A DNA stretch of 47,068 bases from Haloarchaeobius iranensis. GTDB taxonomy: Archaea; Halobacteriota; Halobacteria; Halobacteriales; Natrialbaceae. Made by a program: the position numbers and the translations under genes. The stretch covers positions 1 through 47,068 of the forward strand of contig NZ_FNIA01000024.1 in the NCBI RefSeq assembly GCF_900103505.1, given 5' to 3'. A model generated the notes under the pieces. It searched no databases. It had not been told where the DNA came from and worked only from the letters and a program-made list of their open reading frames with translations. Positions 22,443 through 44,090 of this stretch are shown piece after piece; position 1 is the stretch's first letter, and each line of letters begins with the position of its first letter.

Positions 22443-22465
22443 CTCGAATTCTAATTTGTCACCGT

Positions 22466-22480
22466 GGCTAAAATAACTAA
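22466..22480 (-). promoter_or_regulatory. TATA element of the double-sandwich AAA gene
   Basis: Read on the minus strand: TTAGTTATTTTAGCC. It is centred about 31 nt before ATG 22442, predicting a leader of only a few bases. The two AAA genes therefore have separate promoters in addition to any read-through. Confidence 0.5.
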
Positions 22481-22631
22481 TCTCTCGACTCCAGCACCAC
22501 GCGACGGGTCGGCGCTACTCCTCGGACACCTCGACTCACCACTGTGGGCCCACCTAAACGAAGCAATCCCTGCCCCAGAGGGACCCCTTCCGGGCTTGCG
22601 CTCGCGCTTCAGGCCCCGCGACTAAGAAGCC

Positions 22632-24071
22632 TCAGGACTGTTTCTGTCGCGCTTGTTCTTCGGCGTTGATCGACTGTACGGCGCCGACGAGATCGATCTG
22701 CGTCACGGACTTGCGGCTCTCCCGGATGGCCGTATATCCAGCTTCGGTGCAAGTCGCCTCGATGTCAGCCCCGGTGAACCCGTCGGTGATACTGGCCAAC
22801 TCCTCGTAGTCAATGTCGCTTGTGGTTTCGACGCCGCGAAGATGCACCTGGAAGATCTGTTCTCGAGCCGCCGTGTCTGGCTTGGGGACCTCAACGAGCC
22901 GGTCGAAACGACCCGGTCGCAAAATGGCTTGATCAAGCACGTCGAACCGGTTCGTGGCAGCGACAACCCGAACATTGCCATAGTTGTCGAAGCCGTCCAT
23001 CACGGACAGTAACTGCATCAGCGTCCGCTGGACCTCCTCACTCCCGGAACTCTCCCCCGCACTCCGTTGTCGTGCAATGGCGTCAATCTCGTCGATGAAC
23101 ACGACCGCGGGACTCCGCCGGTCGGCAACATCAAACACCTCCCGGACCATCTGAGCGCCCTCACCGACGTACTTCCGGACGAGCTCGGACCCGGCCATCC
23201 GTATAAACGACGCATCCGTGCTGGCGGCGACCGCCTTCGCGAGCATCGTCTTCCCCGTCCCCGGCGGGCCGTGCAACAGGACGCCATTCGGTGGCTCGAT
23301 TCCAATCTCTGTGAACCGGTCGGGATTCGCCAACGGCTCCTCGATAACTTCACGGACCCGCTGGGTCACGTCCTCGAGACCACCGACATCCTCGAAGCCA
23401 ACCGACGGCCTGCTCTCGGTTTCCATTGACCGAATACGAGTATCGACCTTCTCAGTCAGCACCTTCGCAATGACGCCGTCATCGAGTGCGACCCGCGACC
23501 CGGGCTCCAAGTCTGCGGAGAGGCGGGATGGGGCGGCGACGAGCGTGCCATGACCTCCGGCCCCCTGATCGATAATGACGCCGTCTCGTGTAACCGTCTC
23601 CACTACCGCGATATCGTAGGGGCCGTCGAAGTCAGTAGCCTCCATATCTCCCTCGACGAAATCCTTCGGGTGCGTGCGGAGGAACTCGATCTGTTTGGGC
23701 GAGAGCTCGAACGTGAACCGCTCGCCCTTGTAATCGTGCCGTATCTCGAGTGGTGCCATCTCCGAATCAAGTTGACCGATGTCGGTGACACACCGGGACG
23801 TCCAGTATCGAGGGATTTTGGGACTCGTCCACCAGTCCGTGGGTAGGTGACCCGCATCTCCAGTCTCACCAGAGACCACGTCACCGAGTTCGTGCTCGGT
23901 GCCGTCAGCGTCAATCAACACCATTTCGTCATACCGCCAGACGTGCTCCTCGTCGCCGTGGTTCTCGGCCTCGAAGACCAGCAACGAAACCTCGACGTGG
24001 CCGATGGTCCGGTCGAGGATTCCTGCAAACGTTACTTCTAAGTTCTCGCTCTTCGCGACGGGATACTCCAT
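22632..24071 (-). CDS. PAN-like AAA ATPase with beta-sandwich and OB domains
   Basis: 479 residues. Residues ~8-125 form one beta-sandwich domain related to the two in the neighbouring AAA protein (VWRYDEMVLIDADGTEHE, SRCVTDI). Residues ~148-207 look like the OB domain of PAN/Rpt ATPases (DIAVVETVTRDGVIIDQGA, GSRVALDD). The AAA module shows FEDVGGLEDV, GPPGTGKT (268-275), pore loop YVGEG (301-305), VVFIDE (323-328), AATN (371-374) and RPGRFDR. The C-terminus (EEQARQKQS) again lacks HbYX. It probably forms a hexamer on its own or with the neighbour and would remodel proteins of this cluster. A TTTTAATTA element at 24101-24112 precedes it. The 190-nt gap to the next AAA gene holds that gene's promoter. 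Confidence 0.9.
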   Translation of the reverse strand: MEYPVAKSENLEVTFAGILDRTIGHVEVSLLVFEAENHGDEEHVWRYDEMVLIDADGTEHELGDVVSGETGDAGHLPTDWWTSPKIPRYWTSRCVTDIGQLDSEMAPLEIRHDYKGERFTFELSPKQIEFLRTHPKDFVEGDMEATDFDGPYDIAVVETVTRDGVIIDQGAGGHGTLVAAPSRLSADLEPGSRVALDDGVIAKVLTEKVDTRIRSMETESRPSVGFEDVGGLEDVTQRVREVIEEPLANPDRFTEIGIEPPNGVLLHGPPGTGKTMLAKAVAASTDASFIRMAGSELVRKYVGEGAQMVREVFDVADRRSPAVVFIDEIDAIARQRSAGESSGSEEVQRTLMQLLSVMDGFDNYGNVRVVAATNRFDVLDQAILRPGRFDRLVEVPKPDTAAREQIFQVHLRGVETTSDIDYEELASITDGFTGADIEATCTEAGYTAIRESRKSVTQIDLVGAVQSINAEEQARQKQS

Positions 24072-27961: not shown

Positions 27962-28057
27962 ATGCTGTTTAGAGTCTCTCAGAACGATGTCGGTCACGCG
28001 CCATCCCGTACCGGATGGGAGCTGCCGCGGGCGTTCTGCATCGTACATGCAGAGTGA
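27962..28057 (+). CDS. Candidate leaderless upstream ORF (31 aa)
   Basis: The predicted transcript start coincides with ATG 27962, which opens a 31-codon frame (MLFRVSQNDVGHAPS...HAE). Its TGA at 28055-28057 overlaps the ATG at 28047 of the HEAT-like gene in another frame. A leaderless ribosome would therefore translate this peptide and could re-initiate at 28047. The peptide has no recognised similarity. The arrangement may be regulatory or accidental. Confidence 0.3.
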   Translation: MLFRVSQNDVGHAPSRTGWELPRAFCIVHAE

Positions 28058-30839
28058 CCAAGCACCCTATCTCGACTCCGATCCTGACCCGCTGGCTGTG
28101 TTGTCTCACCTCGAAGCGGCGATCGAACACACTGCCCCCGAAGTCTTCGACCGTGAGACGGATGACGTCTCCGCGAGCGACCGGATGGCGGCCACCGGAG
28201 CAGTTGCTACCACGGCCGCGGAGCATCCGCTTGCAGCTTCACAATGCGCCCCCCAGCTTCTCACAGTTCTCACCCACGTTACCACCGCCACGGAAACCGA
28301 AGCCTCGCTCACCCAAGGGGAGCGCCAGCGATTAGTACGAGAACTCTGTGGTGCCCTCCGTGACATCGCTACTGAGACCCCATCAGCGGTCTACGACCAT
28401 CTCACCGACCTCCAAACGCTCCTAGCAGCCGACGCCCTCGAAGCGAGAGCTGTCGCAGCAGAGGTCCTCGCACAGGCGGCCGACGAGTATCCCGCCCAAT
28501 TCCAGCACCCCGACGCCGTTCTCAGTGCTACACTCGGCGACTCGCTTGTCTCGATACAGAGACACGGCGCAGACATCGCCGCCACGCTTTGCGCGGAATG
28601 GCCAGCCGAGGTATCCGCGAACATCCCAACACTCATCGACCTGCTCGACGCTGCCGACGACGACCTTCGACAGAAAGCAGCAAACGCAATCCACGAGATC
28701 AGCATCGTCACTCCCAGTCGCGTCGCAGAAGACACAGACGTCTTGGGCGCTCACTTACGCGATAGCGACGGCCACTTTCGCTCCCTCATCATACTCGTCT
28801 TTCTCGAACTCGCAGAGGTCGACCACGAGGCCATCTGGAACTACGCAGACGATATCAGATGGAATCTGACGCAGAGCCACGAATCAGCCCGAGAGCGAGC
28901 AGGCGTGTTGCTCGCTCGACTCTCGATTCTGTCGACAGAGAAACTACCAACACTCGTGGATATCCTCGAGACTGCGCTCAAAGTCGAAACCACCGAAAGT
29001 CTCTCTATTCCCGTACAGCAGTTGGCGAACATTCATCCGGCACCCGCCACGGAGCTGTACGACCTGCTCCTCCAGGAAGCCACAGGCGAAGATTGGGAAC
29101 TCGACACACGGGAAGACTTCATCATCGCTGCCTACTGGATTACCGAAGCCACTGACGCTGTCCCAGCCGAGGAGACACTAGAGCGACTGAAACCTGTCCT
29201 TTCGTCCGAGCACGCAGCCCTCCGTGCGGCCGTCGCACTACTATACTTGGAAGTACACGAAATCGCGCCAACGAAGGTAGAGAACACCCTGCGCGCTCCT
29301 GGTGAAGCGGCGTCCGAAGATCTTACCGAACTCGCTTGGATCGATACCGATGCGTTCGACGAGCAGGCCACGGCGCCAGTACTGAAACAGATACAATCAC
29401 AGGCCGAATCCAAGGTCGGTGAAGTCGACACTACACCGCCAGATACAGCTGACCTGATCGAACCGACGTACACCTGGGCACGAAAGGAGAACCCTTCGGT
29501 GGTGCTACAACGTGCAGTGGACGCGATGCAGCGTGAGGACCGAACGGTGCTTGCTGAGATTGATGAGGTCGTTTCGTATCTCAGCCGGAACTCGAGAGTC
29601 ACGCAGCGTGTAGCCATCCGTGTCTTCTACCTGGCGAGCCTGAAACACCCCCAGCAGGCTGCTCGGCATCTCGATGAGGTGTTGGACCTTACCACCAGTC
29701 CGTTTACACAGATCCGGCGATCCGCCCTCTGGATCGTCTTGACTCTCGTTGATAATAACCCAAAGCCTGTCGTTGAAAACCCCGAGCCGTTCCTCGATGG
29801 GCTCACGCACGAGGATAGACTCACCCGTCAAGCAGCGGCGTGGACCCTGGTAGAGATCAGTTCACGCGAGACGTCCGGCCTCGCGGCAGTTGTCGACCAG
29901 TTGATCGCAGCAATCGAGACGGAGCACGTGCTGAGTAGTTTCGCCGTTGAGGTTGTCCTAGCGGACATCGTCGCCACGAATCCAGAAAGCCTTCAACCAC
30001 ACACCGGGCCGCTGCTAGAGAAGTTACAGTTGGGGCTTCGAGCCGACCCTGACGAATTCAAGACGGTCGATTCACTGGTTGACTTAGAGACTACAGAGGC
30101 CGAAGACGAAATCTCACTGTCACTGTTTCCCATGAAGGAATTCCTAAACGACCAGAACCGCATTGATGAACGTCCACTGATGTCTGCCCTCCTGTCCCTG
30201 TTCTTGTTCGACTCATCACTCAGCGTAAAACACAGTGACGGCATTCGTGACCTTCTGGGCGGGGCTGCCAGAGATACGAAACAGGGGTTGTGGCTGCTCG
30301 GGCTCACGGCCAGAGCAGGCGAACCGGGCGTAGCGGAATTCGCTGAGGACATCTCTACGCTTTTGCTGACCGAAAAGGCCCTCAACCCACAAGTGACCGA
30401 AGAGCTCGCAGACTGTCTCGTTTCAGTTACTGACGTCATCCCTGCTGCATTCGTTCCGTGGGTGGATGAACTGATATCGAGACTGTTAGAGATCGAAGAG
30501 ACAGCAGCGACGGATGCAGACCACCACGGTCTCGTAACCGCGCTCCTTGGACTTATCTCGGCGTGTCTCACAGAGATGGACCCGGAGAGATATCCAACAC
30601 CAGATCGGTTCCTCGCGTTTCTCAAGTATGATGACGATGCTGGGAAACACGCAACCAGTATCCTCGGACGATTAGTCGACACGTATCCGTCAGAAGGTGG
30701 CGAGGCACGGGAAGCAATCGTCGAATGGTGTGCCAGTAGTCAAGACACTGCGGACTTGGTTGGGGCCGTCGAGTTTCTAACCAGGACTGGCTCGGTATCG
30801 ACGCTCAACGAGACCTTCGAAACGGCCCATGAAGACTGA
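28047..30839 (+). CDS. HEAT-like alpha-helical repeat protein 1
   Basis: 930 residues (950 if ATG 27987 is used; that extension is Arg/Ser rich and unlike the rest, so 28047 is preferred). It is built almost wholly of paired amphipathic helices of about 40 residues, for example ARAVAAEVLAQAADEYPAQF, DDDLRQKAANAIHEISIVTP, AAWTLVEISSRETSG and VTEELADCLVSVTDVIPAAF. These HEAT/ARM-like solenoids act as scaffolds or adaptors; no catalytic motif is seen. The stop overlaps the next gene by 11 nt, so both proteins are probably made together and may pair. Codon use is less GC-rich by eye than in the flanking kinases. Confidence 0.85.
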   Translation: MQSDQAPYLDSDPDPLAVLSHLEAAIEHTAPEVFDRETDDVSASDRMAATGAVATTAAEHPLAASQCAPQLLTVLTHVTTATETEASLTQGERQRLVRELCGALRDIATETPSAVYDHLTDLQTLLAADALEARAVAAEVLAQAADEYPAQFQHPDAVLSATLGDSLVSIQRHGADIAATLCAEWPAEVSANIPTLIDLLDAADDDLRQKAANAIHEISIVTPSRVAEDTDVLGAHLRDSDGHFRSLIILVFLELAEVDHEAIWNYADDIRWNLTQSHESARERAGVLLARLSILSTEKLPTLVDILETALKVETTESLSIPVQQLANIHPAPATELYDLLLQEATGEDWELDTREDFIIAAYWITEATDAVPAEETLERLKPVLSSEHAALRAAVALLYLEVHEIAPTKVENTLRAPGEAASEDLTELAWIDTDAFDEQATAPVLKQIQSQAESKVGEVDTTPPDTADLIEPTYTWARKENPSVVLQRAVDAMQREDRTVLAEIDEVVSYLSRNSRVTQRVAIRVFYLASLKHPQQAARHLDEVLDLTTSPFTQIRRSALWIVLTLVDNNPKPVVENPEPFLDGLTHEDRLTRQAAAWTLVEISSRETSGLAAVVDQLIAAIETEHVLSSFAVEVVLADIVATNPESLQPHTGPLLEKLQLGLRADPDEFKTVDSLVDLETTEAEDEISLSLFPMKEFLNDQNRIDERPLMSALLSLFLFDSSLSVKHSDGIRDLLGGAARDTKQGLWLLGLTARAGEPGVAEFAEDISTLLLTEKALNPQVTEELADCLVSVTDVIPAAFVPWVDELISRLLEIEETAATDADHHGLVTALLGLISACLTEMDPERYPTPDRFLAFLKYDDDAGKHATSILGRLVDTYPSEGGEAREAIVEWCASSQDTADLVGAVEFLTRTGSVSTLNETFETAHED

Positions 30840-33825
30840 AAACCCGCGTCGAACGGCAAGAGAGCTCGCACTGCAAGCTTCGCGGAATCCCGACCTCTCC
30901 CAAGCGGAGCTGCGAGAAGCATTTGACCTGCTCGAAACCGACCTACGCGGTGATTCAGCGTTCGAGGCCGTTGAAATCCGGAAATATGCCGCGGAGACGA
31001 TTCTCGCAGTTAGCTTCGAGCAGACAGCGGCCGTCACGGAGTACACTGACCGACTCATTACACAGATTAAGACCCAACAGGAGGTTCTGACACAGTCTCC
31101 CGTCGTGTACGAATCGACGAGTCTCATCAGTACCCTCATCAACGTACAGGAGTCCTTGCTGCAGGCGATGAAAGAGGTTGCTCGGACAACGCCGGCTGCA
31201 GTACGGGAGTCTATCGAGGCTCTCGTCCCGGTGTTCGCAGAGGATGGAATGTACCCTGAGCTCACCTCGGCGTTCCTCAATCTGGTTGACGTCTTCGTTA
31301 TCAGTGAGAAGAACGCGGTCGACATCGACCCGTCGCGATTCTGGGGTCTCGTCGGCGCAGGCGACGAGTCACTGACTGCAAGCGCTCTCGGCCTCCTCCA
31401 ATCCCTGCACAAACATGGCCGTATGAGTGTCCTCTCGGACAAGCAGACACTCGTCGAGGAGCTCGAGACAGGGTCGCCGTCAGGGCGACGTGCTGCAGCC
31501 GAGTTAGTCAAAGTCGCCGTCGTCGAGTCTGGTCCAGACGGACTGCGGGACCTGCAAGAAGCGCTTGAGTCGCAACTCGAAGCCTCGAACGTCGAGGTAC
31601 GGCTGTCCGCGCTTTTCGCGCTGTTTGTCTTCCCGAACATCAAGAAATCAGCGTACGAACCAGAGGTCGAGAGTGGGCTGGCGGCGATTGCTGACTCAGA
31701 CCCGGAAGCACAGAAGGCAGCCGTGGACGTGTTCTCGGACTTCGCGGATGTCGCTCCAATCACACGAGTCCCAATCGAGGCGTTGGTCTCGTTGCTCAAT
31801 TCCGACGATCAGGTAACCACGATATCGGTGAGGATACTCCTGGGAGAAATTGCGGAACGGCAGCCCGAGAAGGTAGCTGAGTATCTTGGCGCGTTCGCCG
31901 AACCGATCGGGAACAGTGGCTACAGCGAGCGCAGTAAATTCACGTCGCTCTCGATTATCTACCAGCTGGCGATGCAGGACCCTGGGTTGGTCGTGCCAGT
32001 CGTTCCGACAGTTGCGAATGAAATCGGCGGGAGCAGTGCTATGCACCAGGGGCATCAGCGACGCGTGAAGTCCCAAACCGAACTGTATTCGCACGCAACC
32101 GACGCCGATCCACATCTTAAACACAGCAGTGAAACCATCCGCTCGTCACGCGTCTTCTCCTCCTTAGTCGGCCGGTCGGGGTTCGATGTCGAGTGGGAGT
32201 TGCTCCCGGAGTATCTTGCCGTGCTAATCTTGCTACGGGTCTCCCAAGACGAAATTCGACCGGTTGCGGAGGTGTCCTCGGAGATCGTGTCCGGGGTTAA
32301 CTCCCCTTCCGAGAAAGTCCGGAGCACGACGATCTCGATCCTCAGTTCGATCACCGAGTCCCATTCGCATCAGGTCTCCCCCCATCTTGGATTTATCCTC
32401 GATTCGATCACGCAATCTGGAGGCGACAGCCAGACGTTGGACCAGACGGACCTTCGTGGACTCTTCGTCATCTTCAGGACCGTCATCGACTCGTCTGAGG
32501 CGTGGTGGTTGTCCTCCCGCGACCTCGACAAGTTCTTCATACTACTTGACGCCGAGTTCGACGACAGTGTCGCATACCCGAGCCTTGGCAGACGACTTGC
32601 GCTCCGTATCCTGACGAGTCTGCTCTTTCGGTTGCTCATTGAATCATCGACGCTTGGAAGTAGTCCCGGCGACGGGGGCGACGCAGAACACGACCTCGAG
32701 GAGTCGAACAGCACCGACACTCCGTCATTGAACCCAGACACGATCCGAGAGGAGATCAGTGAGAAGCGCATTCAGGACCTGGTTGCCCTCGGCGAGGCAG
32801 GCTCACTGTACGAACGAGAGAAAGTCCTCAAAATCCTCTTTCTGGTCACTCCCAGCAGCTGCGAGCAGATTGTCCCCCACGTGTCGACCTGTGCAGAGTG
32901 GGGACGCGAGACAGCACCCGACCGCGCCTTGGACCCCGACAAAGACGTGGCACTGGATGCGGATGTTACGGCCGAGCAGGTCGAAGACACCGACGGGAAT
33001 GCCAACCTCCGCAGGCTCGGGCCGCACCTGAGCAGTGACATTGACACTGTTCGAGCGAAATTGGGCAATCTCTACATGGCCGTCGGCAATGCACAACCAA
33101 CCGCACTCGTCCCAGTACTCGACACCCTCCTCGACCTGGCAGCGGACACTGATCCAGAGGTGTCCCAGACTGCGCTGTCTGCACTTGAGGAGGCTCTCGT
33201 TGCCCACCGAGCACTCAGCACGGACCTCATGGAGACGGTAACGTCACAACTGATACATGGTGACCCGGAGGTCGAAGAAGAAGCTGCGCACCTCCTTTCT
33301 GTCGCCGTCTCGGAGGCGACCGAACCGGCCACAGCCGAGATGTCCGTCATCACGGTCGCATTCAAGCAAGCATCGTCTGTTGCTGCCCGCCTGTTCCTCG
33401 CACGCTCGATATCGATCATCGCTGAAAGCCATCCAAGCGAAGTCATCTCCATAAGCTCTCATCTCACCACCGAGCTCGAAGCCGCCATCCCAGACACACT
33501 CCAGCAGCGCGACACCGATTACAAGACGGGCGGTGCGGACTTGCTGGGAGCCGACCGCACCCACAACATGGTGCTCGTCCGTCGATACCTCTACCGTGCA
33601 TTGGAACACTGCCTCTCGGTCCCTGAACTCACGGACCAGTGGTCCCCACAAGTGTTACAGGACATCATCAGGGCTGCTCCCGAGATAGCCCCCACCGCTG
33701 CCCGACGCTACGTCGCATACCACGAGGATGCGTCCGGGGACCTGATGACTCCCGACGAACTCGCCTCTAGTCTCGAAACCGACATCCAAGAACGAACCAA
33801 AGCAATCCTCCAGAACGAACTCTAA
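30829..33825 (+). CDS. HEAT-like alpha-helical repeat protein 2
   Basis: 998 residues of the same helical repeat type: EVRLSALFALFVFPNIKKSA, DPEAQKAAVDVFSDFADVAP, TISVRILLGEIAERQPEKVA, DPEVSQTALSALEEALVAHR and DPEVEEEAAHLLSVAVSEAT. Helix pairs end in short Asp/Pro loops, as in HEAT repeats. A low-complexity acidic segment (~620-650) interrupts the solenoid. It overlaps the upstream HEAT-like gene by 11 nt and has a similar size, suggesting an ancient duplication followed by strong divergence. It is convergent with the zinc-site protein gene, only 30 nt away, with a small hairpin between. It is likely a scaffold subunit; partners are unknown. Confidence 0.85.
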   Translation: MKTENPRRTARELALQASRNPDLSQAELREAFDLLETDLRGDSAFEAVEIRKYAAETILAVSFEQTAAVTEYTDRLITQIKTQQEVLTQSPVVYESTSLISTLINVQESLLQAMKEVARTTPAAVRESIEALVPVFAEDGMYPELTSAFLNLVDVFVISEKNAVDIDPSRFWGLVGAGDESLTASALGLLQSLHKHGRMSVLSDKQTLVEELETGSPSGRRAAAELVKVAVVESGPDGLRDLQEALESQLEASNVEVRLSALFALFVFPNIKKSAYEPEVESGLAAIADSDPEAQKAAVDVFSDFADVAPITRVPIEALVSLLNSDDQVTTISVRILLGEIAERQPEKVAEYLGAFAEPIGNSGYSERSKFTSLSIIYQLAMQDPGLVVPVVPTVANEIGGSSAMHQGHQRRVKSQTELYSHATDADPHLKHSSETIRSSRVFSSLVGRSGFDVEWELLPEYLAVLILLRVSQDEIRPVAEVSSEIVSGVNSPSEKVRSTTISILSSITESHSHQVSPHLGFILDSITQSGGDSQTLDQTDLRGLFVIFRTVIDSSEAWWLSSRDLDKFFILLDAEFDDSVAYPSLGRRLALRILTSLLFRLLIESSTLGSSPGDGGDAEHDLEESNSTDTPSLNPDTIREEISEKRIQDLVALGEAGSLYEREKVLKILFLVTPSSCEQIVPHVSTCAEWGRETAPDRALDPDKDVALDADVTAEQVEDTDGNANLRRLGPHLSSDIDTVRAKLGNLYMAVGNAQPTALVPVLDTLLDLAADTDPEVSQTALSALEEALVAHRALSTDLMETVTSQLIHGDPEVEEEAAHLLSVAVSEATEPATAEMSVITVAFKQASSVAARLFLARSISIIAESHPSEVISISSHLTTELEAAIPDTLQQRDTDYKTGGADLLGADRTHNMVLVRRYLYRALEHCLSVPELTDQWSPQVLQDIIRAAPEIAPTAARRYVAYHEDASGDLMTPDELASSLETDIQERTKAILQNEL

Positions 33826-33855: not shown

Positions 33856-35160
33856 CTAGACGGCGTGGCGTGCACCGAGTAACCGAGCGTTGTCGATGTA
33901 CATACTCGCGCCACAGCCATCGACGCCGCAGTTCCCACCGGTCGTCTGCCTGCACAGTGGGCATTCTATCCGCGTCGGGGTCGAGACGAGCTGGCGGATG
34001 ATACTATCGAGGACGTACGCGTGCTGCCACACTCGATGGTACTGCCACGTGTCCCCCCGCCATTCTACAGGCTGATTCCGGATTGCTGGGTTCACCAGCC
34101 ACCGTCTCGCCCCATCGGGGAGTTGATACACTGCGCCACCGAATCCTCCCGGGAACGAGAACCCACCGTGGACGAGCCGACTCAACGGGTCGCTGTGCTC
34201 TTCCCATAGCTGCCAACTCCGTTGTTCGCCATCGTCCGACTGCGTCGCCCTGAGCGGCAGGTCGAGCAGCGGAAGTGCTATCTCACGGAGGGTGCGTGCC
34301 TGCCCTAGTGCCGACGGTTCGTTCATTACGCTCTTTAGTTCGCCAAAGAGGCGAGAGCGCGTGGTCGATGCCGGGTTCGAGAGCCGGTCCCGTGTCTCCA
34401 ACTCCGAGAGTGCTTCCACCGCCTGGTCCAGCCTGCTATCGATATCTATCTCCTCGACCGGTCGCGTCTCGAACGCCGCCCGCGTGACTGGGGCGACGAG
34501 ATACGGGATATCTAACGCCGCGTTCGCAACTGCCTCTGCCGTCAGCCGGTTGTACTCGCTTGCAATCGACACCAACTCCGCATAGATGTGGTCCGCCGAG
34601 TCTGGTGTCTGTGCGTCGAGGTCGACGGAGTCGACAGCTTGCTCGATCGTCCGTCGCGCGCTGGCCGGAGCGTCCCTATCAGCCACCAGGACATCGATCT
34701 CGTCCTGAATGTGGGCGTCGTCTTCCAACAGGGAGTACGCGAGGAACTTATCCACCTGCTCGAGAGGATACCGGACCTGGCCGAACAGCGTCTCGATGGT
34801 ATCGTAGTACGCCCGTGCCGTCGCGAGTGCATCGTCGGGGTCGTGTCTGCCCTTGAGTGCATCGTACACTAATCGGCCAGCTTCTCGTTTGAGGAGCCGG
34901 ACGTTCCGCATCAAACCGAACCGTTGTCGGCGACCGTGGAGTAACTCCTCTCGGAACGATACGACCTGGAGCCGCGCCATCGACTCGAGATTTCCGGGGT
35001 CGATTGTGATCTGGAACGTGCTGTCACTCGGCCGAGCGAGCGCCGCGAACTGCTGGTTCTCGAACCAGTGTTCGTAGCCGCTGCCTGATCCACTATCGCT
35101 GTCGGCGACCGAGGTCGCTGCAAGCCCGAATCGATACCTCTCCCGCCCGTAGTCGCTCAT
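33856..35160 (-). CDS. Unrecognised helical protein with C-terminal zinc site
   Basis: 434 residues. The N-terminal ~50 are polar (SVADSDSGSGSGYEHWFENQ), then a long helical body follows (SFREELLHGRRQRFGLMRNV; DTIETLFGQVRYPLEQVDKF; EYNRLTAEAVANAALDIPYL). A mixed region comes next with many Trp (RRWLVNPAIRNQPVEWRGDT). The C-terminus holds CPLC and CGVDGC (C-X2-C-X8-C-X4-C), a treble-clef or ribbon-like zinc site, followed by MYIDNARLL. No family is recognised. Its start overlaps the stop of the upstream 165-residue gene (ATGA), so the two are co-translated. The zinc tip may bind another cluster component. Confidence 0.75.
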   Translation of the reverse strand: MSDYGRERYRFGLAATSVADSDSGSGSGYEHWFENQQFAALARPSDSTFQITIDPGNLESMARLQVVSFREELLHGRRQRFGLMRNVRLLKREAGRLVYDALKGRHDPDDALATARAYYDTIETLFGQVRYPLEQVDKFLAYSLLEDDAHIQDEIDVLVADRDAPASARRTIEQAVDSVDLDAQTPDSADHIYAELVSIASEYNRLTAEAVANAALDIPYLVAPVTRAAFETRPVEEIDIDSRLDQAVEALSELETRDRLSNPASTTRSRLFGELKSVMNEPSALGQARTLREIALPLLDLPLRATQSDDGEQRSWQLWEEHSDPLSRLVHGGFSFPGGFGGAVYQLPDGARRWLVNPAIRNQPVEWRGDTWQYHRVWQHAYVLDSIIRQLVSTPTRIECPLCRQTTGGNCGVDGCGASMYIDNARLLGARHAV

Positions 35161-35778: not shown

Positions 35779-36711
35779 TCACATACTCACCCGTGGCTTG
35801 AGCTCGTACTCGAATCGAATCACCGTCTCGGACGTACTGGTCTCATCCGTGTATACCGGCGTCCAGTCGACATCCCCTCCCTCGCTCACGTCGGTGAAGT
35901 CCACCGTGTTCGTGGGCTTTCGATCGGTCGACTCAACCGCGACATTCGAGCACAACATGAGCAACGCGTTGTTGAGCCCATATTCGTTCGTGACGGTCAG
36001 GTCGCCACGGATACTGGCTTTGATTGTGAAGCCTTTCATCGTCCCGGAGAGTTCCTCGGCTTCATATGGTCCGAACTCCTCGAATTCGACCGTCGGAAGG
36101 CCATTCAGAGGGATTTCGTCCGTGAATCGTTCATCCTCACTCGAGTCCACCTCCAGGTCGTAGAAATCAGCGGTCTTTGCGTACCAGTACGCCTTCAGCG
36201 GCCGATTGGTCACCTTGAACCCGGGGTCGTACGACCAGTCGCTGGTCTTGTCGTTGATATACGCGACGACCCGGGCGACAATCGGATCGACCGGGGCGTG
36301 GAATGGGTCCACGAGCCAATCGAGCACAGCGGGAACCCGAACGAGTAGCGGATCGCCCGGTCGATTGACCTTCGGAACCGTGTACGCGCCGCCATGCTGG
36401 AGTGTGGGTTCGAAGTGGCCGGCATCCGAGAGGTCGCCGCCTGTCACGTCTTCCCGATCTTGGAAACTGGGGAACGAGAGCACTCTATCCGCAACCTCAC
36501 CTTTGCGGAGCACAACCTTCCGTGCGGCTTGAAGCGAGAGGTACGTATCCCGTTTCTTTGGGTTCCCGAACGTTCGCTTCCAGAACTGGTTCCGGTAGGG
36601 ACTCGGCGTGAACCTCTGCCAGTCCCAGAGTGCGCCACCTGGAGTGAGAAGAGAGTGGTCGCTCGACTCAGTCATCGGCCCGATCACACGTACGAACGAT
36701 TCCCATGACAT
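35779..36711 (-). CDS. Unrecognised 310-residue protein
   Basis: From ATG 36711: MSWESFVRVIGPMTESSDHS, then DWQRFTPSPYRNQFWKRTFG, RDTYLSLQAARKVVLRKGEV and, later, a beta-rich half (FTIKASIRGDLTVTNEYGLN, DETSTSETVIRFEYELKPRV). The mix of basic and aromatic residues in the first third is unusual for a haloarchaeal protein. No known fold is recognised; a two-domain protein with a beta-sandwich-like C-terminus is plausible. An A/T stretch (CATAAGTTACTTATTCC, 36726-36742 on the minus strand) gives a near-leaderless start. It reads in the same direction as the two unknown proteins downstream and could be a third member of their set. Confidence 0.7.
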   Translation of the reverse strand: MSWESFVRVIGPMTESSDHSLLTPGGALWDWQRFTPSPYRNQFWKRTFGNPKKRDTYLSLQAARKVVLRKGEVADRVLSFPSFQDREDVTGGDLSDAGHFEPTLQHGGAYTVPKVNRPGDPLLVRVPAVLDWLVDPFHAPVDPIVARVVAYINDKTSDWSYDPGFKVTNRPLKAYWYAKTADFYDLEVDSSEDERFTDEIPLNGLPTVEFEEFGPYEAEELSGTMKGFTIKASIRGDLTVTNEYGLNNALLMLCSNVAVESTDRKPTNTVDFTDVSEGGDVDWTPVYTDETSTSETVIRFEYELKPRVSM

Positions 36712-36737
36712 CTCCCGCAAGTGGCTGGAATAAGTAA

Positions 36738-37152: not shown

Positions 37153-37377
37153 ATGAAAGTCCCAATATCGATCGACGACGAGACGTTCAACATCACCGAT
37201 GACACGACCGTCGCAGACCTCAAACGGCGAGTCGGTTGCAACGATGACTATGCACTCGTGTACAGAGATGACCAGACAGTACTGGTTCTCGACGACGACG
37301 CCATCGTGGCTGACCACGTCGAACCGCAAACCACCCTAGAAGTCCACCCGCTCTCAGACAACTATGTCTTCCGCTGA
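37153..37377 (+). CDS. Ubiquitin-like beta-grasp protein
   Basis: 74 residues with the order expected of a ubiquitin fold: an N-terminal beta hairpin (MKVPISIDDETFNITDD), a helix (TVADLKRRVG), then strands and turns (YALVYRDDQTVLVLDDDAIV, ADHV) and a last strand (TTLEVHPLSDNYVFR). The pattern resembles small prokaryotic ubiquitin-like proteins such as YukD-type and ThiS-type folds. The C-terminus ends VFR and has no Gly-Gly, so it is not ready for classical conjugation. The stop overlaps the ATG of the E2-like gene by one base (TGATG), a strong sign of a functional pair. Fold assignment is by pattern only; a structure prediction would settle it. Confidence 0.7.
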   Translation: MKVPISIDDETFNITDDTTVADLKRRVGCNDDYALVYRDDQTVLVLDDDAIVADHVEPQTTLEVHPLSDNYVFR

Positions 37378-37784
37378 TGACTTCCGGACGTGTCCTCGCG
37401 GACATCGCCGAGCTTGCGAGCGTGTTGCGAGAGCGATCCAACACGCAACTCACCTACGATGTCCAAGACTCCAGCTTCGTAGAGATCGGGCACTTCAGAT
37501 TTCCCGATGGCTGGCAAACGACGGACGGAACCCGGGTCGGCGCAATCCGGTTCGAGCTTCCAGCATCGTATCCAAACATGCCACCGTCAGTCGCTGTTCC
37601 AGCGGGCATGCGTTACCAGGGTCAACGGACCCAGGCCATGCAACCTACCCGAGCGTGGCCGCCCGAGAACTGGGTTGCCTTCGAGCCGGACTACGGCCAG
37701 TGGAATCCGGCAGCCGATGGCCTTTTAACGGCGCTTGCGGCCATCGAACGACGGCTGCGCGACCCTCAACCGAAAACACTGTGA
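37377..37784 (+). CDS. E2/UBC-fold protein lacking the catalytic cysteine
   Basis: 135 residues. The N-terminal helix (RVLADIAELASVL) and beta meander are followed by IRFELPASYPNMPPSVAVPA, which fits the E2 'YPxxPP' strand region. The C-terminal QWNPAADGLLTALAAIERRL then RDPQP matches the E2 block QWSPAL....LLSI..LL.DPNP. In E2s the catalytic Cys lies eight residues before this Trp; here that residue is Ala, and the whole protein has no cysteine. It therefore resembles inactive E2 variants (UEV/RWD-like) that bind ubiquitin-like partners. Its partner is probably the overlapping ubiquitin-like protein. I see no E1 or JAB gene in the window. Confidence 0.72.
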   Translation: MTSGRVLADIAELASVLRERSNTQLTYDVQDSSFVEIGHFRFPDGWQTTDGTRVGAIRFELPASYPNMPPSVAVPAGMRYQGQRTQAMQPTRAWPPENWVAFEPDYGQWNPAADGLLTALAAIERRLRDPQPKTL

Positions 37785-37973: not shown

Positions 37974-38366
37974 ATGTCACTCGACTGGCCCGAAACTTTC
38001 GACCGAACACCACCCGACAACCGCGAACCGTATCCACACCATTTCCAAGTCTCGTTGGAGCGCGCCTTCGGGAACGTCGTCACCCAAGTCGACCGATTGG
38101 AAGGCGCGGAGTTAATCGCTATCGAGACCGCTTCCGGAGCAACTGCCGGTCCACCAGCCACGACGGGCGATATCGAGAACCCGGGCGTCGTGGTGCGGTT
38201 CAGGAACGACGGTGTCGTGTATGCCGTCCCCTGTGACCGGTGGGCTGCACTTCGCGACAACGTCCAGGCGGTCGCCAAGTACCTCGAAGCGAAGCGCGCC
38301 CTCGACAGATACGGGGTCGAAACGCTCACCGACGAGTTCGCAACCCAGAAGGTCAGACTCGACTGA
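37974..38366 (+). CDS. J-domain-protein N-terminal-like domain, without a J domain
   Basis: 130 residues. LDWPETFDRTPPDNREPYPH opens the protein and is followed by FQVSLERAFGNVV, ENPGVVVRFRNDGVVYAVPC and DRWAALRDNVQAVAKYLEAK. This matches, from memory, the N-terminal domain of a group of plasmid, phage and archaeal J-domain proteins (LDWP..W.RT, DPG...., CD.....RDN..A). In those proteins an HPD-containing J domain follows; here the protein ends where it would begin, and no HPD motif is present. The next gene's ATG overlaps the stop by one base. Given the GrpE and Hsp70 genes downstream, it may be a client adaptor of the local Hsp70, though it cannot stimulate ATPase like a J protein. Confidence 0.6.
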   Translation: MSLDWPETFDRTPPDNREPYPHHFQVSLERAFGNVVTQVDRLEGAELIAIETASGATAGPPATTGDIENPGVVVRFRNDGVVYAVPCDRWAALRDNVQAVAKYLEAKRALDRYGVETLTDEFATQKVRLD

Positions 38367-39409
38367 TGCCTGACAACGCTCCGAGCAACGATCCGCGAAA
38401 TCACCCCTCGCCGCAGCACGGCTACGAGCGTACTGCCTGTCGAGCGGACGGTGGGCGGTCGACTCGTGGCTGGGCAGACGGGTTCGACGGCTGGGCCGCC
38501 GCAGCGAAACCGGAGTCGACCGACGCCGAGTACAGTCGAAGCTTCCACTGGTGTCACGCCGGCGAGCGTCGAGAGCTGACGCTCTCGATCCCCGTTGGCA
38601 CGTACGACTACTGCGTGAATCGCGCGCGCACCGGCGACTACAGACAGTACGTCGTCGACCCGCTCCAGGAGCCGTTCATCGCCACTGTCGCCGAGGATAT
38701 CGAGGAGACCATGCCCGGAGGGACCGCGCGAGACACGGTCACCAGCTGTGTGCGATTCGTTCAGAGCCTCGAGTACATCCGCGACCGCGAGGACACGGGT
38801 CACGAGGCCTACCCGAAGTACCCGGTCGAGACGCTGGTGCATCAACGCGGCGACTGTGAGGACGGGACGTTACTGCTGTGTGCCCTCCTGGAGACACTCG
38901 GCTACGACACGGCGGTGCTGGTCCTCCCAGCCCACCACCACATGGTTGCTGGCGTCGCGTGTGACTGGGGTCACGGGGCCAGCGTCACCCATCAAGGCAC
39001 CCAGTTCTTCACCGTCGAGACGACCACCAGTGGCTGGGATATCGGCGAGCTTGACCCACAGTTCCAGGGGTCGCCCGTGGACGTGCACCGCCCGGACGAT
39101 ACGCCGATACTCGTCCACCAGTGGGACGCCACCCCGACAACGGAGACCGGTGTGACCGTCACCGTCCACGCTGCAAACTTCGGAAGTGCACCCGTCGAGG
39201 ATGTCCAAGTCCGCTTCCTGTTCGAACGTCGGAACGGAACCATAGCAGAGCGTGTCTGGTTGGGCGACGGTAGTCGAACGCTCGCGGCCGGCGAGTCCAC
39301 GCAGTTCATCCGTGATATCGTGCCGCCACCGGACTTGCAACTCCGTGGGCGATGTCGCCTCATCGCTGCTGGCGCGCTCCACGACGAAAGCGAGAGCGAG
39401 TGGCACTGA
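38366..39409 (+). CDS. Transglutaminase-like protein with C-terminal Ig-like domain
   Basis: 347 residues. After a polar N-terminus, residues ~100-230 form a transglutaminase/protease-like core: YPVETLVHQRGDCEDGTLLL with Cys164 in the GDCED motif, AHHHMVAGVAC with His192, and FTVETTTSGWDIGEL with Glu218 as the likely third residue. The C-terminal ~90 residues (TGVTVTVHAANFGSAPVEDV) look like a CARDB/Ig domain. Such Cys-His-acid folds cut or cross-link peptide bonds. No signal peptide is present, so it acts inside the cell and could cleave or modify cluster components, perhaps the ubiquitin-like protein. It is coupled to the preceding gene (TGATG) and 42 nt before the GrpE-like gene. Confidence 0.83.
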   Translation: MPDNAPSNDPRNHPSPQHGYERTACRADGGRSTRGWADGFDGWAAAAKPESTDAEYSRSFHWCHAGERRELTLSIPVGTYDYCVNRARTGDYRQYVVDPLQEPFIATVAEDIEETMPGGTARDTVTSCVRFVQSLEYIRDREDTGHEAYPKYPVETLVHQRGDCEDGTLLLCALLETLGYDTAVLVLPAHHHMVAGVACDWGHGASVTHQGTQFFTVETTTSGWDIGELDPQFQGSPVDVHRPDDTPILVHQWDATPTTETGVTVTVHAANFGSAPVEDVQVRFLFERRNGTIAERVWLGDGSRTLAAGESTQFIRDIVPPPDLQLRGRCRLIAAGALHDESESEWH

Positions 39410-39451: not shown

Positions 39452-40900
39452 ATGTCCGAAAATCGACGAAACCAGACCGACCCTGACGGGGCCGAATCGA
39501 TGACCGACGACGACGAAAACGAACAAGCCGACACCCAGGCACCGGAATCCACAGAACGCGTCGACCAGCAGGCACCGCTCGGTGACGTGGGGGAGCGGAG
39601 CATCGACGGCGACAAATGGCGACAGCGACTCGCCCAACTGAAAGTCGACAGGGCTATCGCCACATCCGACGAACAGAAGAAAGCGCTCACTGACAAGATC
39701 GAAGACCTCAGAGCGCGGATGCACGACGCTGGCGTGCCTACTGACGCCCCCGATGGAGAACCCAGTACGGACACCGAATCACCCGACAAGTCCACCGATT
39801 CACAATACCAACCCACCGAGCAACATCCCATCGACGCCGATGACGACAACGAGGAGGGAGCGACGGACTCGACGGGAGCTGCCGGCTCGGACTCACCCGG
39901 GTCGTCGAGCGACGCGGACTCCGTCCCCGGGAAGTCGCAACACCAGATGGGAGCTGAGGGGACGGCCAGTGCCGACTCGCCGAGCGAACTCACGTCGGAC
40001 AGCAACACCACCTCACAGGCCCAGTCTGAGGAGGCACAACAGCCCGACCAGTCACCCGAAGACGGCATTGACCGGGAACGTGCTACGGACTCGGAGCAAG
40101 AACCAACCGAAGCGCGCTCTCCTCGGGACCAGGACGTTAGCCAGACGCCCGAGCCCGATGCCTCACCAACTAATCCCACGCCCGACCCAAACGAGTCCAC
40201 TCCTGAACGTGCTCCGAGCCCGACATCCACTCCAACCGAGAACACGCAGGAAACGGATTTCGAGGACACGCAGGACACCGATTCCGACCCGGACCCCGAC
40301 TCGGGACCGAAACTCGAGTCACTCGAAGAGTCCGATGCCGGGGCAGATGACCGCGCGGATTCACATCCCACGTCGAATGCACACCTGTCACTCCGTGACG
40401 ACCGTGGGGGAGAGTCGACACCATCCAACGACCAGCGGAACGACGCGACCAGCAGAACCGAAACTCTCGCTGAGGAGGTCTCGGTGCTCCAGACTCAGCT
40501 CGAGACCCTCGGGACGACAGTCGACGAGTATCGCCAGAAGAACGAGCGCGAACACGAAATCCTCCAGAAAGAAGCTGTCGAACAACTCGGTGAGCGCATG
40601 CTTCGGGTCCGCGACACGTTGAACCGTGCTATCGAGTACAACGAGTTCGACGACGACCAGGCCGCGATGCTCGAAGCAGTCGTCACGAAGTTCGACCAAC
40701 AGTTCACCGCTGGTGCCATCGACAAAATCGATCCGGACCCTGGCGACGAGGTCGACGACCTCCGCCATGCACTGGCGGGACCGCGCGAAGAGACGACTAC
40801 CGTTCCCCCAGGCTGTATCATCCGTGTCGAATCCCCCGGCTTCGAGATCGACGGCTACCCGTTACAGGAAGCGGAAGTCATCGCCGCAAAGCGGAAGTAA
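39452..40900 (+). CDS. GrpE-like protein with long acidic extension
   Basis: 482 residues. The last ~140 residues match GrpE: a coiled-coil dimer helix (EEVSVLQTQLETLGTTVDEY; LGERMLRVRDTLNRAIEYNE), a helix bundle, and the beta head ending PGCIIRVESPGFEIDGYPLQ then EAEVIAAKRK (compare GrpE ...PG.V..V..PGY......L.PA.V.V). GrpE exchanges ADP for ATP on Hsp70. About 340 residues before it are an acidic, Ser/Thr/Pro-rich disordered stretch with one short helix (~50-90). The extension is several times longer than in normal GrpE. Together with the J-like domain upstream and the Hsp70 at 42411, this gives a dedicated chaperone set. GAGA before ATG 39452 is a weak ribosome site. Confidence 0.82.
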   Translation: MSENRRNQTDPDGAESMTDDDENEQADTQAPESTERVDQQAPLGDVGERSIDGDKWRQRLAQLKVDRAIATSDEQKKALTDKIEDLRARMHDAGVPTDAPDGEPSTDTESPDKSTDSQYQPTEQHPIDADDDNEEGATDSTGAAGSDSPGSSSDADSVPGKSQHQMGAEGTASADSPSELTSDSNTTSQAQSEEAQQPDQSPEDGIDRERATDSEQEPTEARSPRDQDVSQTPEPDASPTNPTPDPNESTPERAPSPTSTPTENTQETDFEDTQDTDSDPDPDSGPKLESLEESDAGADDRADSHPTSNAHLSLRDDRGGESTPSNDQRNDATSRTETLAEEVSVLQTQLETLGTTVDEYRQKNEREHEILQKEAVEQLGERMLRVRDTLNRAIEYNEFDDDQAAMLEAVVTKFDQQFTAGAIDKIDPDPGDEVDDLRHALAGPREETTTVPPGCIIRVESPGFEIDGYPLQEAEVIAAKRK

Positions 40901-41101: not shown

Positions 41102-42319
41102 ATGAGCGTGGAAATAGACGCCGAACTGAGTCAAGCACTTCCGGCCGGCAGCGGCCGGACGACGCTCGCGGCAACGATCATCCCTACTGACAAACAACAG
41201 CCGACGAAACGACACATCGCTGTCGTGGTCGACGTGAGCGGGTCGATGTCGAAGGACGTCGCGTTCGTCGACGACACGCCCGCAAAGATCGAACTGGCCC
41301 GCCAAGGCGTCGCGAAGCTCCTGACCGAGATGCACGAGGACGACCAGCTCAGCATCATCGCGTTCGACTCTACCCCTGACGTCTTGGTGCCGATGACCGA
41401 GTGGGGAAACGCAGACCACGACCAGATTGAGACCACGGTCACCGGCACGCCGGGCTCGGGGTACGACGGTGCCCTGGACGCCGGCGGCGGGACGAACATC
41501 AAGCGCGCAATCCAGACCGCAGCCCAGCAGTTCACGGCGGACGGCGACGGCGTCGTGAGCAAGGATATCGTCCTCCTGTCCGACGGGATGGACCGCCGTG
41601 ACCTCGACGAGTTCAGACAGCAGGCCGATACGCTGGATTCGAAGGGTATTACCGTCAGTGCAGGCGGAATCGGCCGGTCTTACAACGAAGACGTCCTCCT
41701 GGCGCTCACGAATGGGACTGGTGGGTCGGCCGAGCATCTGGAAGCGCCACGTGACATCGAGTCGTTCCTCCACGACAAAGCCCAAGATGCCCGAGACACC
41801 GTGGCACCTAACCCCCAGCTCCGCTTCGAGTTCGCCGACGGCTTCAGAATCGCCCCCGGCGAGCCGGCGTACCTCACCGAACCGCAGGCGACTTCGGAAC
41901 CGGTCTCGACTGACGGCAGCACCGCTGTTGTCGACCTCCCGAAACTCACCGCCGGAGAACGCATCCGCCTCACCGTCGAGGTGCTCGGCGGTCACAAGTC
42001 CACGGGCATGATTTATCCGATGGCCGAACTCTTCGTGGAGGACGACGCCGTGTTGGCCTCGACGGCAGTCGAGGTCCGATACGAGGATGACCCGACGAAG
42101 CGTCTGGACATCGAGAAGGAGCGCCTGAGTGGCGACATCACGACAGACATCATCGACCCGGAGGTCGAGAAAGCAACCATCGAGTCCCGCATCGACAGCA
42201 TCGAACACGACCGCAGCTGGAAACACCTCGCGGCCGTCCTCCGTAAGCGACTGGCGGACGCCGAAGCCACGGGCGGGAACATCGCCGTCTCGAAAGCGAA
42301 GTACGACCCCGACGACTAG
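41102..42319 (+). CDS. VWA-domain protein with intact MIDAS
   Basis: 405 residues. After a short beta region (SVEIDAELSQALPAG), residues ~36-205 form a von Willebrand A domain with the full metal-ion site: DVSGS (D44, S46, S48), GGGTNIK (T131) and LLSDGMD (D161). The rest is a beta-rich domain (ELTVEVLGG-like; RIRLTVEVLGGHKSTGMIYP) and a C-terminal helical tail (EVEKATIESRIDSIEHDRSW). VWA domains of this type bind protein ligands through a bound Mg2+. VWA genes have been linked by gene context to a family of FtsZ/tubulin-like proteins in a predicted membrane-remodelling system, which matches the gene set here. Confidence 0.92.
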   Translation: MSVEIDAELSQALPAGSGRTTLAATIIPTDKQQPTKRHIAVVVDVSGSMSKDVAFVDDTPAKIELARQGVAKLLTEMHEDDQLSIIAFDSTPDVLVPMTEWGNADHDQIETTVTGTPGSGYDGALDAGGGTNIKRAIQTAAQQFTADGDGVVSKDIVLLSDGMDRRDLDEFRQQADTLDSKGITVSAGGIGRSYNEDVLLALTNGTGGSAEHLEAPRDIESFLHDKAQDARDTVAPNPQLRFEFADGFRIAPGEPAYLTEPQATSEPVSTDGSTAVVDLPKLTAGERIRLTVEVLGGHKSTGMIYPMAELFVEDDAVLASTAVEVRYEDDPTKRLDIEKERLSGDITTDIIDPEVEKATIESRIDSIEHDRSWKHLAAVLRKRLADAEATGGNIAVSKAKYDPDD

Positions 42320-42410
42320 ACCTTCCCTGTCGCGGTTTATCGTCCTCGAATCACTCGGATATCAGTCGGAGTCAGACCGTTGATGTCCCTGTCCCATTGT
42401 TCGATTGCCG
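42320..42410. other. Short intergenic gap before the Hsp70-like gene
   Basis: About 90 bases. A weak A/T run (ggtttatcg, about 42334-42342) could serve as a TATA element. No gene is seen. Confidence 0.3.
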
Positions 42411-44090
42411 ATGAGCTACTTAGGAATCGACCTCGGGACGACTCGCAGTGGTGTCGCGGTTGTCGAAGCCGACGACCCAACGCTGTTACAGAACAACGCT
42501 GGTGACCGACTGACCCCGTCAGTCGTGTACTATCGAGACGACGACGACGACGTTCTCGTGGGGAAGCCAGCGAAGAACAAGCAGAAAGAGCAGAACGACC
42601 GCATCGTCACCGACGCGAAGCGTCGGATGGGCGACGACCACGTGTACGCAATCGACGGAGAGGAGTACACGCCAGCAGCGGTCTCGTCAGAGGTGCTCAA
42701 GCAGCTGAAGGACGACGCAGAGGAGTTCGAGGATGACATCTCGGGTGCCCACATCACGGTGCCGGCGTACTTCACGGTCGACCAGAAGGGAGCCGTCAGG
42801 GAGGCCGCCGAAATCGCCGGGTTCGATGAGATTGACCTCCTCCACGAACCGACTGCTGCCGCCATCGGTCACGGGTTCGACCAGGAGATGAACGAGACGG
42901 TATTCGTCTACGACTTCGGTGGTGGAACCCTCGACATCTCGCTGATGGATGTCGAGGGTAACAGCTTCGACATCCTCGCGACCAGCGGCGACACCACCCT
43001 CGGTGGCATCGACTTCACCGAGGCAATCATGGACCTGTTGGCCGACGAGTTCGAACAGAACAACGGCATCGACCTGCGCTCGGACCCAGAAGCTAGAGAG
43101 AGCCTCCGCGCCGAAGCGGAGCAGGCCAAGATCGACCTCTCCGGGCGCGAGGAGACAGAGATTAGCGCACCGCTCCTCGGTCAGATCGACGACGAGGTCG
43201 TCGGGATCACCGAACGTGTCCTGCGTCGCTCCGAGTTCGAGTCTGCCGCCTCCGGACTGCTGGACCGCGCCATCGATCCCGTCGAGGATGCGCTCAAGAA
43301 GGCCGATATGGATGCCGAAGACGTCGACACGGTCCTCCTCGTCGGTGGGTCGTCGAAGATTCCAGCGGTGCAGGAACAGCTCACTGACTTCTTCGGTTTC
43401 GAGCCGACGAAGACCAACGACCTCGCCAAGGTGGTCGCGAAGGGCGCAGCCATCGTGGCCGACCTCGAGGACGGCATCGATGAGAAGTACGTCTGCCCCG
43501 AGTGCCCGCAAGGGTTCGACTACTTCGACGACCTCAACGATCACCTCTCGACGCACGACCCGGACGACGGCATCGCGTGCCCGTACTGTGATGAGGTCTT
43601 GGATACGAAGGGCGACCGCGAGGACCACATCGGCCTTGAGCACCCCGGAGAACTCGGTAGCGGCGGTGAAGAAGGCGGGAAGTATCCCACTGGAAAGAAG
43701 AAGATTCTATCGCGGTCGCTCGGCACTGACCTGGTCGGTGCACGCATGGATATCCTCATCGAGGAGGGGTCCGAACTGCCTGCCACTGCAACAGAACGGT
43801 ACGTGCCGACCGCCGACGACCCTGAACAGATTCCGGTCCACGTCTACCAGGGCGAGGACGTGGAGAACCTCTACTCGAATGAGAAGCTGAAGGACTGGTA
43901 CGTTGAGGATATCCCGGAGACGGAGAGTGGCCGTCCGACCATCGCTGTGACGTTCGAAATCGACGACGACGGCCTGCTCGAGGTGAGTGCAGAACTTGTC
44001 GACAGCGATAAGAGCGTGTCTACGACGGTCGACAGAATCACTGGCAGCCGGTCAAACGGTACGTCGAAGGGCCCCGCTGACGACGACTAG
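42411..44090 (+). CDS. Hsp70 (DnaK-like) with two C2H2 zinc fingers in the interdomain linker
   Basis: 559 residues. The nucleotide-binding domain is complete: SYLGIDLGTTRSGVAVVEA, GAHITVPAYF, EPTAAAIGHGF, VYDFGGGTLDISL, GDTTLGGIDF and VLLVGGSSKIP. In place of the usual hydrophobic linker come two classical zinc fingers, C362-X2-C365-X12-H378-X3-H382 and C390-X2-C393-X12-H406-X4-H411. The beta substrate-binding domain follows (LSRSLGTDLVGARMDIL, VHVYQGEDVENLY, IAVTFEIDDDGLLEVSAEL). The alpha-helical lid is missing, since the protein ends about 20 residues later. So this is not the housekeeping DnaK. Zinc fingers at the allosteric hinge could sense zinc or a protein partner. ATG 42411 is preferred over an in-frame TTG two codons upstream. 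Confidence 0.93.
   Translation: MSYLGIDLGTTRSGVAVVEADDPTLLQNNAGDRLTPSVVYYRDDDDDVLVGKPAKNKQKEQNDRIVTDAKRRMGDDHVYAIDGEEYTPAAVSSEVLKQLKDDAEEFEDDISGAHITVPAYFTVDQKGAVREAAEIAGFDEIDLLHEPTAAAIGHGFDQEMNETVFVYDFGGGTLDISLMDVEGNSFDILATSGDTTLGGIDFTEAIMDLLADEFEQNNGIDLRSDPEARESLRAEAEQAKIDLSGREETEISAPLLGQIDDEVVGITERVLRRSEFESAASGLLDRAIDPVEDALKKADMDAEDVDTVLLVGGSSKIPAVQEQLTDFFGFEPTKTNDLAKVVAKGAAIVADLEDGIDEKYVCPECPQGFDYFDDLNDHLSTHDPDDGIACPYCDEVLDTKGDREDHIGLEHPGELGSGGEEGGKYPTGKKKILSRSLGTDLVGARMDILIEEGSELPATATERYVPTADDPEQIPVHVYQGEDVENLYSNEKLKDWYVEDIPETESGRPTIAVTFEIDDDGLLEVSAELVDSDKSVSTTVDRITGSRSNGTSKGPADDD

Follow-up and report, generated by a model that had tools for sequence, protein, structure and literature searches.

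Two overlapping genes of Haloarchaeobius iranensis raise the question of why a ubiquitin-like protein (UBL) without a terminal glycine and an E2-fold protein without cysteine should be kept side by side. Both lie in a stretch of DNA of 47,068 nucleotides, which was analysed as a whole and is called the window here. Features of the window are listed in Table 1.

Table 1. Genes and sites of the window, with their coordinates
Feature	Position	Strand	Remarks
Tubulin_2 protein, 803 aa	25070..27481	-	Homologue near 5/5 two-E2 operons and near Hsp70/vWA modules
434-aa protein, no Pfam match	33856..35160	-	Homologues adjoin the operons of Halolamina pelagica and G392
313-aa protein, no Pfam match	35779..36720	-	Divergent neighbour of the UBL; homologue near 5/5 two-E2 operons
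UBL, UBL1-type beta-grasp, 74 aa	37153..37377	+	C-terminus ...DNYVFR, versus ...DNxVFG(G)x in relatives
Arg74 codon CGC	37372..37374	+	Gly (GGN) in 19/19 complete-operon UBLs
UEV-like, Cys-less E2/UBC-fold protein, E2a type, 135 aa	37377..37784	+	
Small protein conserved in haloarchaea, 130 aa, no Pfam family	37974..38366	+	
Transglutaminase-like protein	38366..39409	+	Candidate catalytic residues GDCED...HHHM...ET
GrpE domain after long acidic N-terminal region	39452..40900	+	Pfam E 8.5e-17
vWA-domain protein	41102..42319	+	Pfam E 3.4e-15
Hsp70 (DnaK), two C2H2 zinc fingers	42405..44090	+	

The overlapping UBL and E2-like genes

The two open reading frames share a single base, as the first-pass annotation had stated; it is the A at 37377, within the sequence TGATG. 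The same annotation had described the first product as a beta-grasp protein without Gly-Gly, and it had proposed structure prediction of each protein as a check. The predicted UBL structure is indeed a beta-grasp (pLDDT 82.8 from a small alignment), with best matches among ubiquitin variants (Z 10.4). The C-terminus of the protein reads ...PLSDNYVFR. Its sole Gly is residue 28, so that processing of whatever kind would not uncover a Gly at the C-terminus, and with Arg74 in place of Gly the residue for E1 adenylation is missing.

Structure prediction of the second protein gave a UBC fold (pLDDT 87.5, again from a small alignment), and there is no Cys among its 135 residues, in agreement with the earlier description. 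Its top structural match was BubB (PDB 9eae chain C, Z 12.2), below which came UBC enzymes and the Tsg101 UEV. The Bub (bacterial ubiquitination-like) pathway, with BubA, BubB and BubCD, has reportedly been described by Ye et al. in 2026 and by Gong et al. in 2025. The closeness to UEV-type proteins that had been suspected was also recovered by profile comparison, in which the Vps23 UEV was the best PDB match of the E2 family (E 1.7e-4). The window E2, a predicted UBC-fold protein without the catalytic Cys, is UEV-like in that respect.

When the window proteins by themselves were searched against Pfam, PADLOC and PDB sequences, any matches were sub-threshold. The UBL matched Pfam SAMP2 at E 4.5e-4 (21 bits, below the cut-off of 27). 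A profile comparison with Prok-E2 families had been suggested beforehand, and the window E2 matched Prok-E2_E (PF14462) at E 6.7e-4 (19.9 bits, below the cut-off of 25); matches to this family were obtained for 9 of the 16 members of the E2 family, with E values up to 0.05.

One detail of the annotation did not survive alignment. It had placed Ala at the catalytic Cys position; when Cys-bearing relatives were aligned, however, the catalytic column was occupied by Glu103 (W99-V-A-F-E103 versus W/F-x-K-x-C). Ala101 sits two residues before it, and the assignment was rejected.

Complete haloarchaeal operons and the parts lost from the window

Among the haloarchaeal genomes and named records searched we found 14 complete operons comprising a UBL, an E2 and a JAB-E1 fusion (G365, G246 = Natribaculum luteum, G040 = Haloferax marisrubri, Halolamina pelagica, G392, G176, G335, G289, G364, G295, G143, G402 = Natrinema sp. 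SYSU A 869, G391 and Salinigranum marinum). The counts do not include the JAB-E1 locus of G070, which belongs to a different type; its UBL ends in GC and its E2 is Cys-less. All 14 operons encode at least one Cys-bearing E2, the Cys adjoining a conserved Trp-x-Pro block, and C-terminal Phe-Gly is present in each of their 19 UBLs, some of them short-tailed (VFG, VFGGA, PFG, IFGTDRWSPL and others). The best solved match of the JAB-E1 proteins was Citrobacter BubCD (E 1.6e-24), with both domains covered.

The gene order UBL1-E2a-UBL2-E2b-JAB-E1 was observed in five of the 14 operons (G365, G246, G040, H. pelagica and G392). In all five, E2b carries KYCIH and E2a is without Cys, having Ser or Asp there; the motif M-x-P-x-R is private to E2a. 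The window E2 retains this signature (M88-x-P90-x-R92) together with W99, and E2 relatives from other genera match it at E 1e-18 to 1e-23. It falls within the Cys-less E2a clade with support of 93/90, under the 95% mark. The UBL tree was unresolved; the UBL tail DNYVFR resembles the UBL1 tail DNNVFGG, with GGN changed to CGC. On sequence comparison, the window pair descends from UBL1-E2a and has lost UBL2, E2b, JAB-E1 and the terminal Gly (...VFG to ...VFR).

A search for Cys in homologues had also been called for, and its outcome is divided: every complete operon has an E2 with the residue, E2b in the two-E2 operons, and E2a and one of the two E2s of G176 are without it. The idea that the pair was retained after losing its chemistry is partly supported. 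The chemistry is absent and, as described below, selection is purifying; however, the Cys is missing already from the E2a paralogue of five complete operons, so it was absent before the other losses. A joint loss of the E2 Cys and the UBL Gly was rejected on the same ground.

At a completeness of 99.9%, the window genome encodes one ThiF protein (307 aa, UbaA-sized, on another contig) and one separate Prok-JAB protein, neither of them near the pair; no JAB-E1 fusion or dedicated E1 was found in it. Remnants of UBL2, E2b or JAB-E1 were not detected in the window. An ordinary SAMP2-like or Prok-E2 system with its E1 elsewhere in the genome would account for the sub-threshold SAMP2 and Prok-E2_E matches and for the UbaA-like E1 on the other contig. 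SAMP2-type function requires a C-terminal Gly-Gly, however, and its absence here already contradicts such a reading; the nearest relatives of the pair are, moreover, operon UBLs and E2s, not SAMPs. We find this explanation hardly credible.

Some of the complete operons sit on haloarchaeal plasmids. With E2a features retained in the pair, it is conceivable that the Gly-less UBL and Cys-less E2 act as a decoy or inhibitor, occupying partners of the complete UBL systems of plasmids or competitors. No complete operon was found in the window genome or in the genus sample, which speaks against such a role, and we consider it very improbable.

Further observations were made on individual operons. In G176 a single UBL is accompanied by a Cys-bearing E2 and a Cys-less one, the latter of uncertain tree position; the two E2 genes overlap each other 3' of the UBL (L017 9464-10263), possibly an independent pairing of the two kinds. 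The JAB-E1 proteins of two-E2 operons (L030 11208-13106, L014 1697-3736, L028 11235-13028) have a hydrophobic C-terminal stretch with basic residues after it, judged by eye to be a putative membrane anchor. UBL2 of Halolamina pelagica (L028 10430-10810) is broken by a frameshift in the assembly. The complete operon on the Salinigranum marinum plasmid (L135) adjoins genes for 7-deazaguanine biosynthesis and tRNA-guanine transglycosylase, making this locus a possible DNA-modification island. A scan of genome contigs with the Cys-less E2 alignment gave three loci, two of them previously found, and G124 and G258 gave weak E2 matches, with E values of about 1e-3. A scan of viral contigs recovered no relative.

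Selection on the pair and its gene neighbourhood

The sister species G214 has the entire region at 90.8% DNA identity, and the UBL ends in VFR in both species. Between the two, dN/dS was 0.28 for the UBL and 0.15 for the E2, and neither gene contained indels. The overlapping alternative frames gave dN/dS values of 1.8 and 3.1; flanking intergenic DNA was 81-87% identical. Frames that are kept in the sister species, at dN/dS values low against those of the alternative frames, show that the ORF pair is not due to chance. Both the UBL and the E2 gene are under purifying selection.

In the class sample a clear UBL-E2 pair without JAB-E1 was found only in the window genome and G214; all further UBL-E2 pairs found in the family are accompanied by JAB-E1. 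The state without UBL2, E2b, JAB-E1 and terminal Gly is limited to these two closely related species, so the time of retention may be short. Together with the disappearance of all other conjugation genes, this narrow occurrence would fit a decaying leftover, on its way out and without present function. We regard decay as unlikely, since the frames are intact and indel-free in both species, silent change per site is several times amino-acid change, and E2a-specific residues have been retained despite about 35% identity to relatives.

The surroundings of the pair recur in part beside the two-E2 operons. Each of these five operons has homologues of the Tubulin_2 protein and the 313-aa protein no more than about 20 kb away, and in G365 the 313-aa gene is divergent from and adjacent to UBL1, the same arrangement as in the window. 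The operon of Natribaculum is followed by a MoxR-vWA pair and a tubulin-like gene. In the window, two adjacent HEAT/armadillo-repeat proteins (950 and 998 aa, 27987-33825) are encoded between Tubulin_2 and the UBL-E2 pair, and two adjacent AAA ATPases (20670-24071) are encoded beside the Tubulin_2 gene.

Downstream of the pair, the 130-aa gene probably starts the next transcription unit. Of 382 genomes of haloarchaea, 78 have a member of its protein family, for the most part at a distance from the Hsp70/vWA module. The Hsp70 zinc fingers lie at residues about 362-415; the homologues of G238 and G033 retain Cys pairs at this place and that of G030 lacks them (homologues compared include L104 6778-8418 and L106 14091-15725). 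The transglutaminase-GrpE-vWA-Hsp70 module recurs near Tubulin_2 in G238, G030 and G033 (in G030 the Tubulin_2-like gene was identified by eye), each time without a UBL-E2 pair; the presumed tie of the window pair to this module rests on adjacency.

The transglutaminase-like gene is located two genes downstream of the pair, with its candidate catalytic residues intact, and the genome encodes an E1-like protein elsewhere. Conjugation might proceed by another route, with the transglutaminase-like enzyme attaching the UBL or the housekeeping UbaA-type E1 activating it. This seems to us quite improbable: there is no Gly near the UBL C-terminus for processing to expose, the E2 has no Cys, and the module is found in genomes that do not have the pair.

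We consider it probable that the pair, as the UBL1-E2a part of a Bub-like operon, was kept as a non-covalent UBL·UEV adaptor module after the conjugation half was lost. Its ancestor was a haloarchaeal Bub-like operon containing UBL1-E2a and a conjugation half made up of UBL2, a Cys-bearing E2b and a JAB-E1 fusion. The window lineage lost this half and the terminal glycine of the UBL and kept UBL1-E2a. Non-covalent binding between the UBL and the E2 is predicted from the overlapping gene pair; E2a would act as a UEV, holding its own UBL, and probably also a further client, without covalent chemistry. The UBL·E2a complex may then have an adaptor role within the neighbouring Tubulin_2 / Hsp70-GrpE-vWA-transglutaminase machinery. 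In the complete two-E2 operons, E2a could be the non-catalytic partner of E2b, as Mms2 is beside Ubc13. Our analysis suggests that the pair now works as a binding pair in a chaperone- and tubulin-associated gene cluster.

Comparison with known systems

There are NTP-dependent conflict systems with tubulin, with Hsp70 or GrpE, or with a complete Ubl system among their parts (Kaur et al., 2020; PMC7159879). The window neighbourhood is similar in having Tubulin_2, Hsp70, GrpE, vWA and two AAA proteins. It differs in that its UBL part is inactive and in the GTPase/GAP1 or VMAP components that define those systems: Pfam scans of the window gave no match to DO-GTPase/GAP1 or VMAP, and no MoxR-vWA-VMAP core was identified there. 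The resemblance to these systems is one of shared components.

Bub operons have been named previously (PMC13373217). The likeness of the window E2 to BubB is one of fold comparison, BubB not being alignable by sequence. The JAB-E1 of the complete haloarchaeal operons matches BubCD, whereas the window has neither BubCD nor the terminal Gly of the UBL. Some of the complete operons have two UBL-E2 pairs, and all have a Cys-bearing E2.

Cys-less E2-fold proteins beside UBLs have been known in bacteria since 2006, when operon type 6e was described as containing a (poly)Ubl, a Cys-less E2/RWD-like protein and a JAB-E1 fusion (Iyer, Burroughs and Aravind, 2006; PMC1779556). As in type 6e, the window UBL adjoins a Cys-less E2-fold protein, and in the relatives of the window the JAB is fused N-terminally to E1. 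Unlike type 6e, the window locus is without JAB-E1, its UBL is single and Gly-less, and its host is a haloarchaeon; the two-E2 relatives differ in adding a second, Cys-bearing E2. Set against a complete Bub-like or type 6e operon, the window has the E2-fold protein with its UBL and is without the adjacent E1 and the C-terminal Gly.

No description of complete haloarchaeal UBL-E2-JAB-E1 operons was found in the searchable literature. As far as that literature shows, two things are new: complete haloarchaeal operons with paired Cys-bearing and Cys-less E2s, and a derivative without any conjugation parts, yet under selection. Together they offer a natural before-and-after comparison for the passage from a ubiquitin system to a binding module. 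Before, a catalytic and a non-catalytic E2 stand side by side; after, in a close derivative, the chemistry is gone and selection continues.

The window E2 is like the UEV proteins (Tsg101/Vps23, Mms2/Ube2V) in having a UBC fold without the catalytic Cys. It differs from them in being prokaryotic and in its gene overlapping that of its own UBL, and the likeness is one of fold and sequence. The time of origin and the binding targets of UEV-like proteins become testable in an archaeon. More broadly, and only as a tentative proposal, the Bub-like two-pair operons of Haloarchaea might be a prokaryotic counterpart of Ubc13-Mms2, with the UEV-like pair of one lineage now possibly a purely non-covalent tubulin/Hsp70/vWA adaptor.
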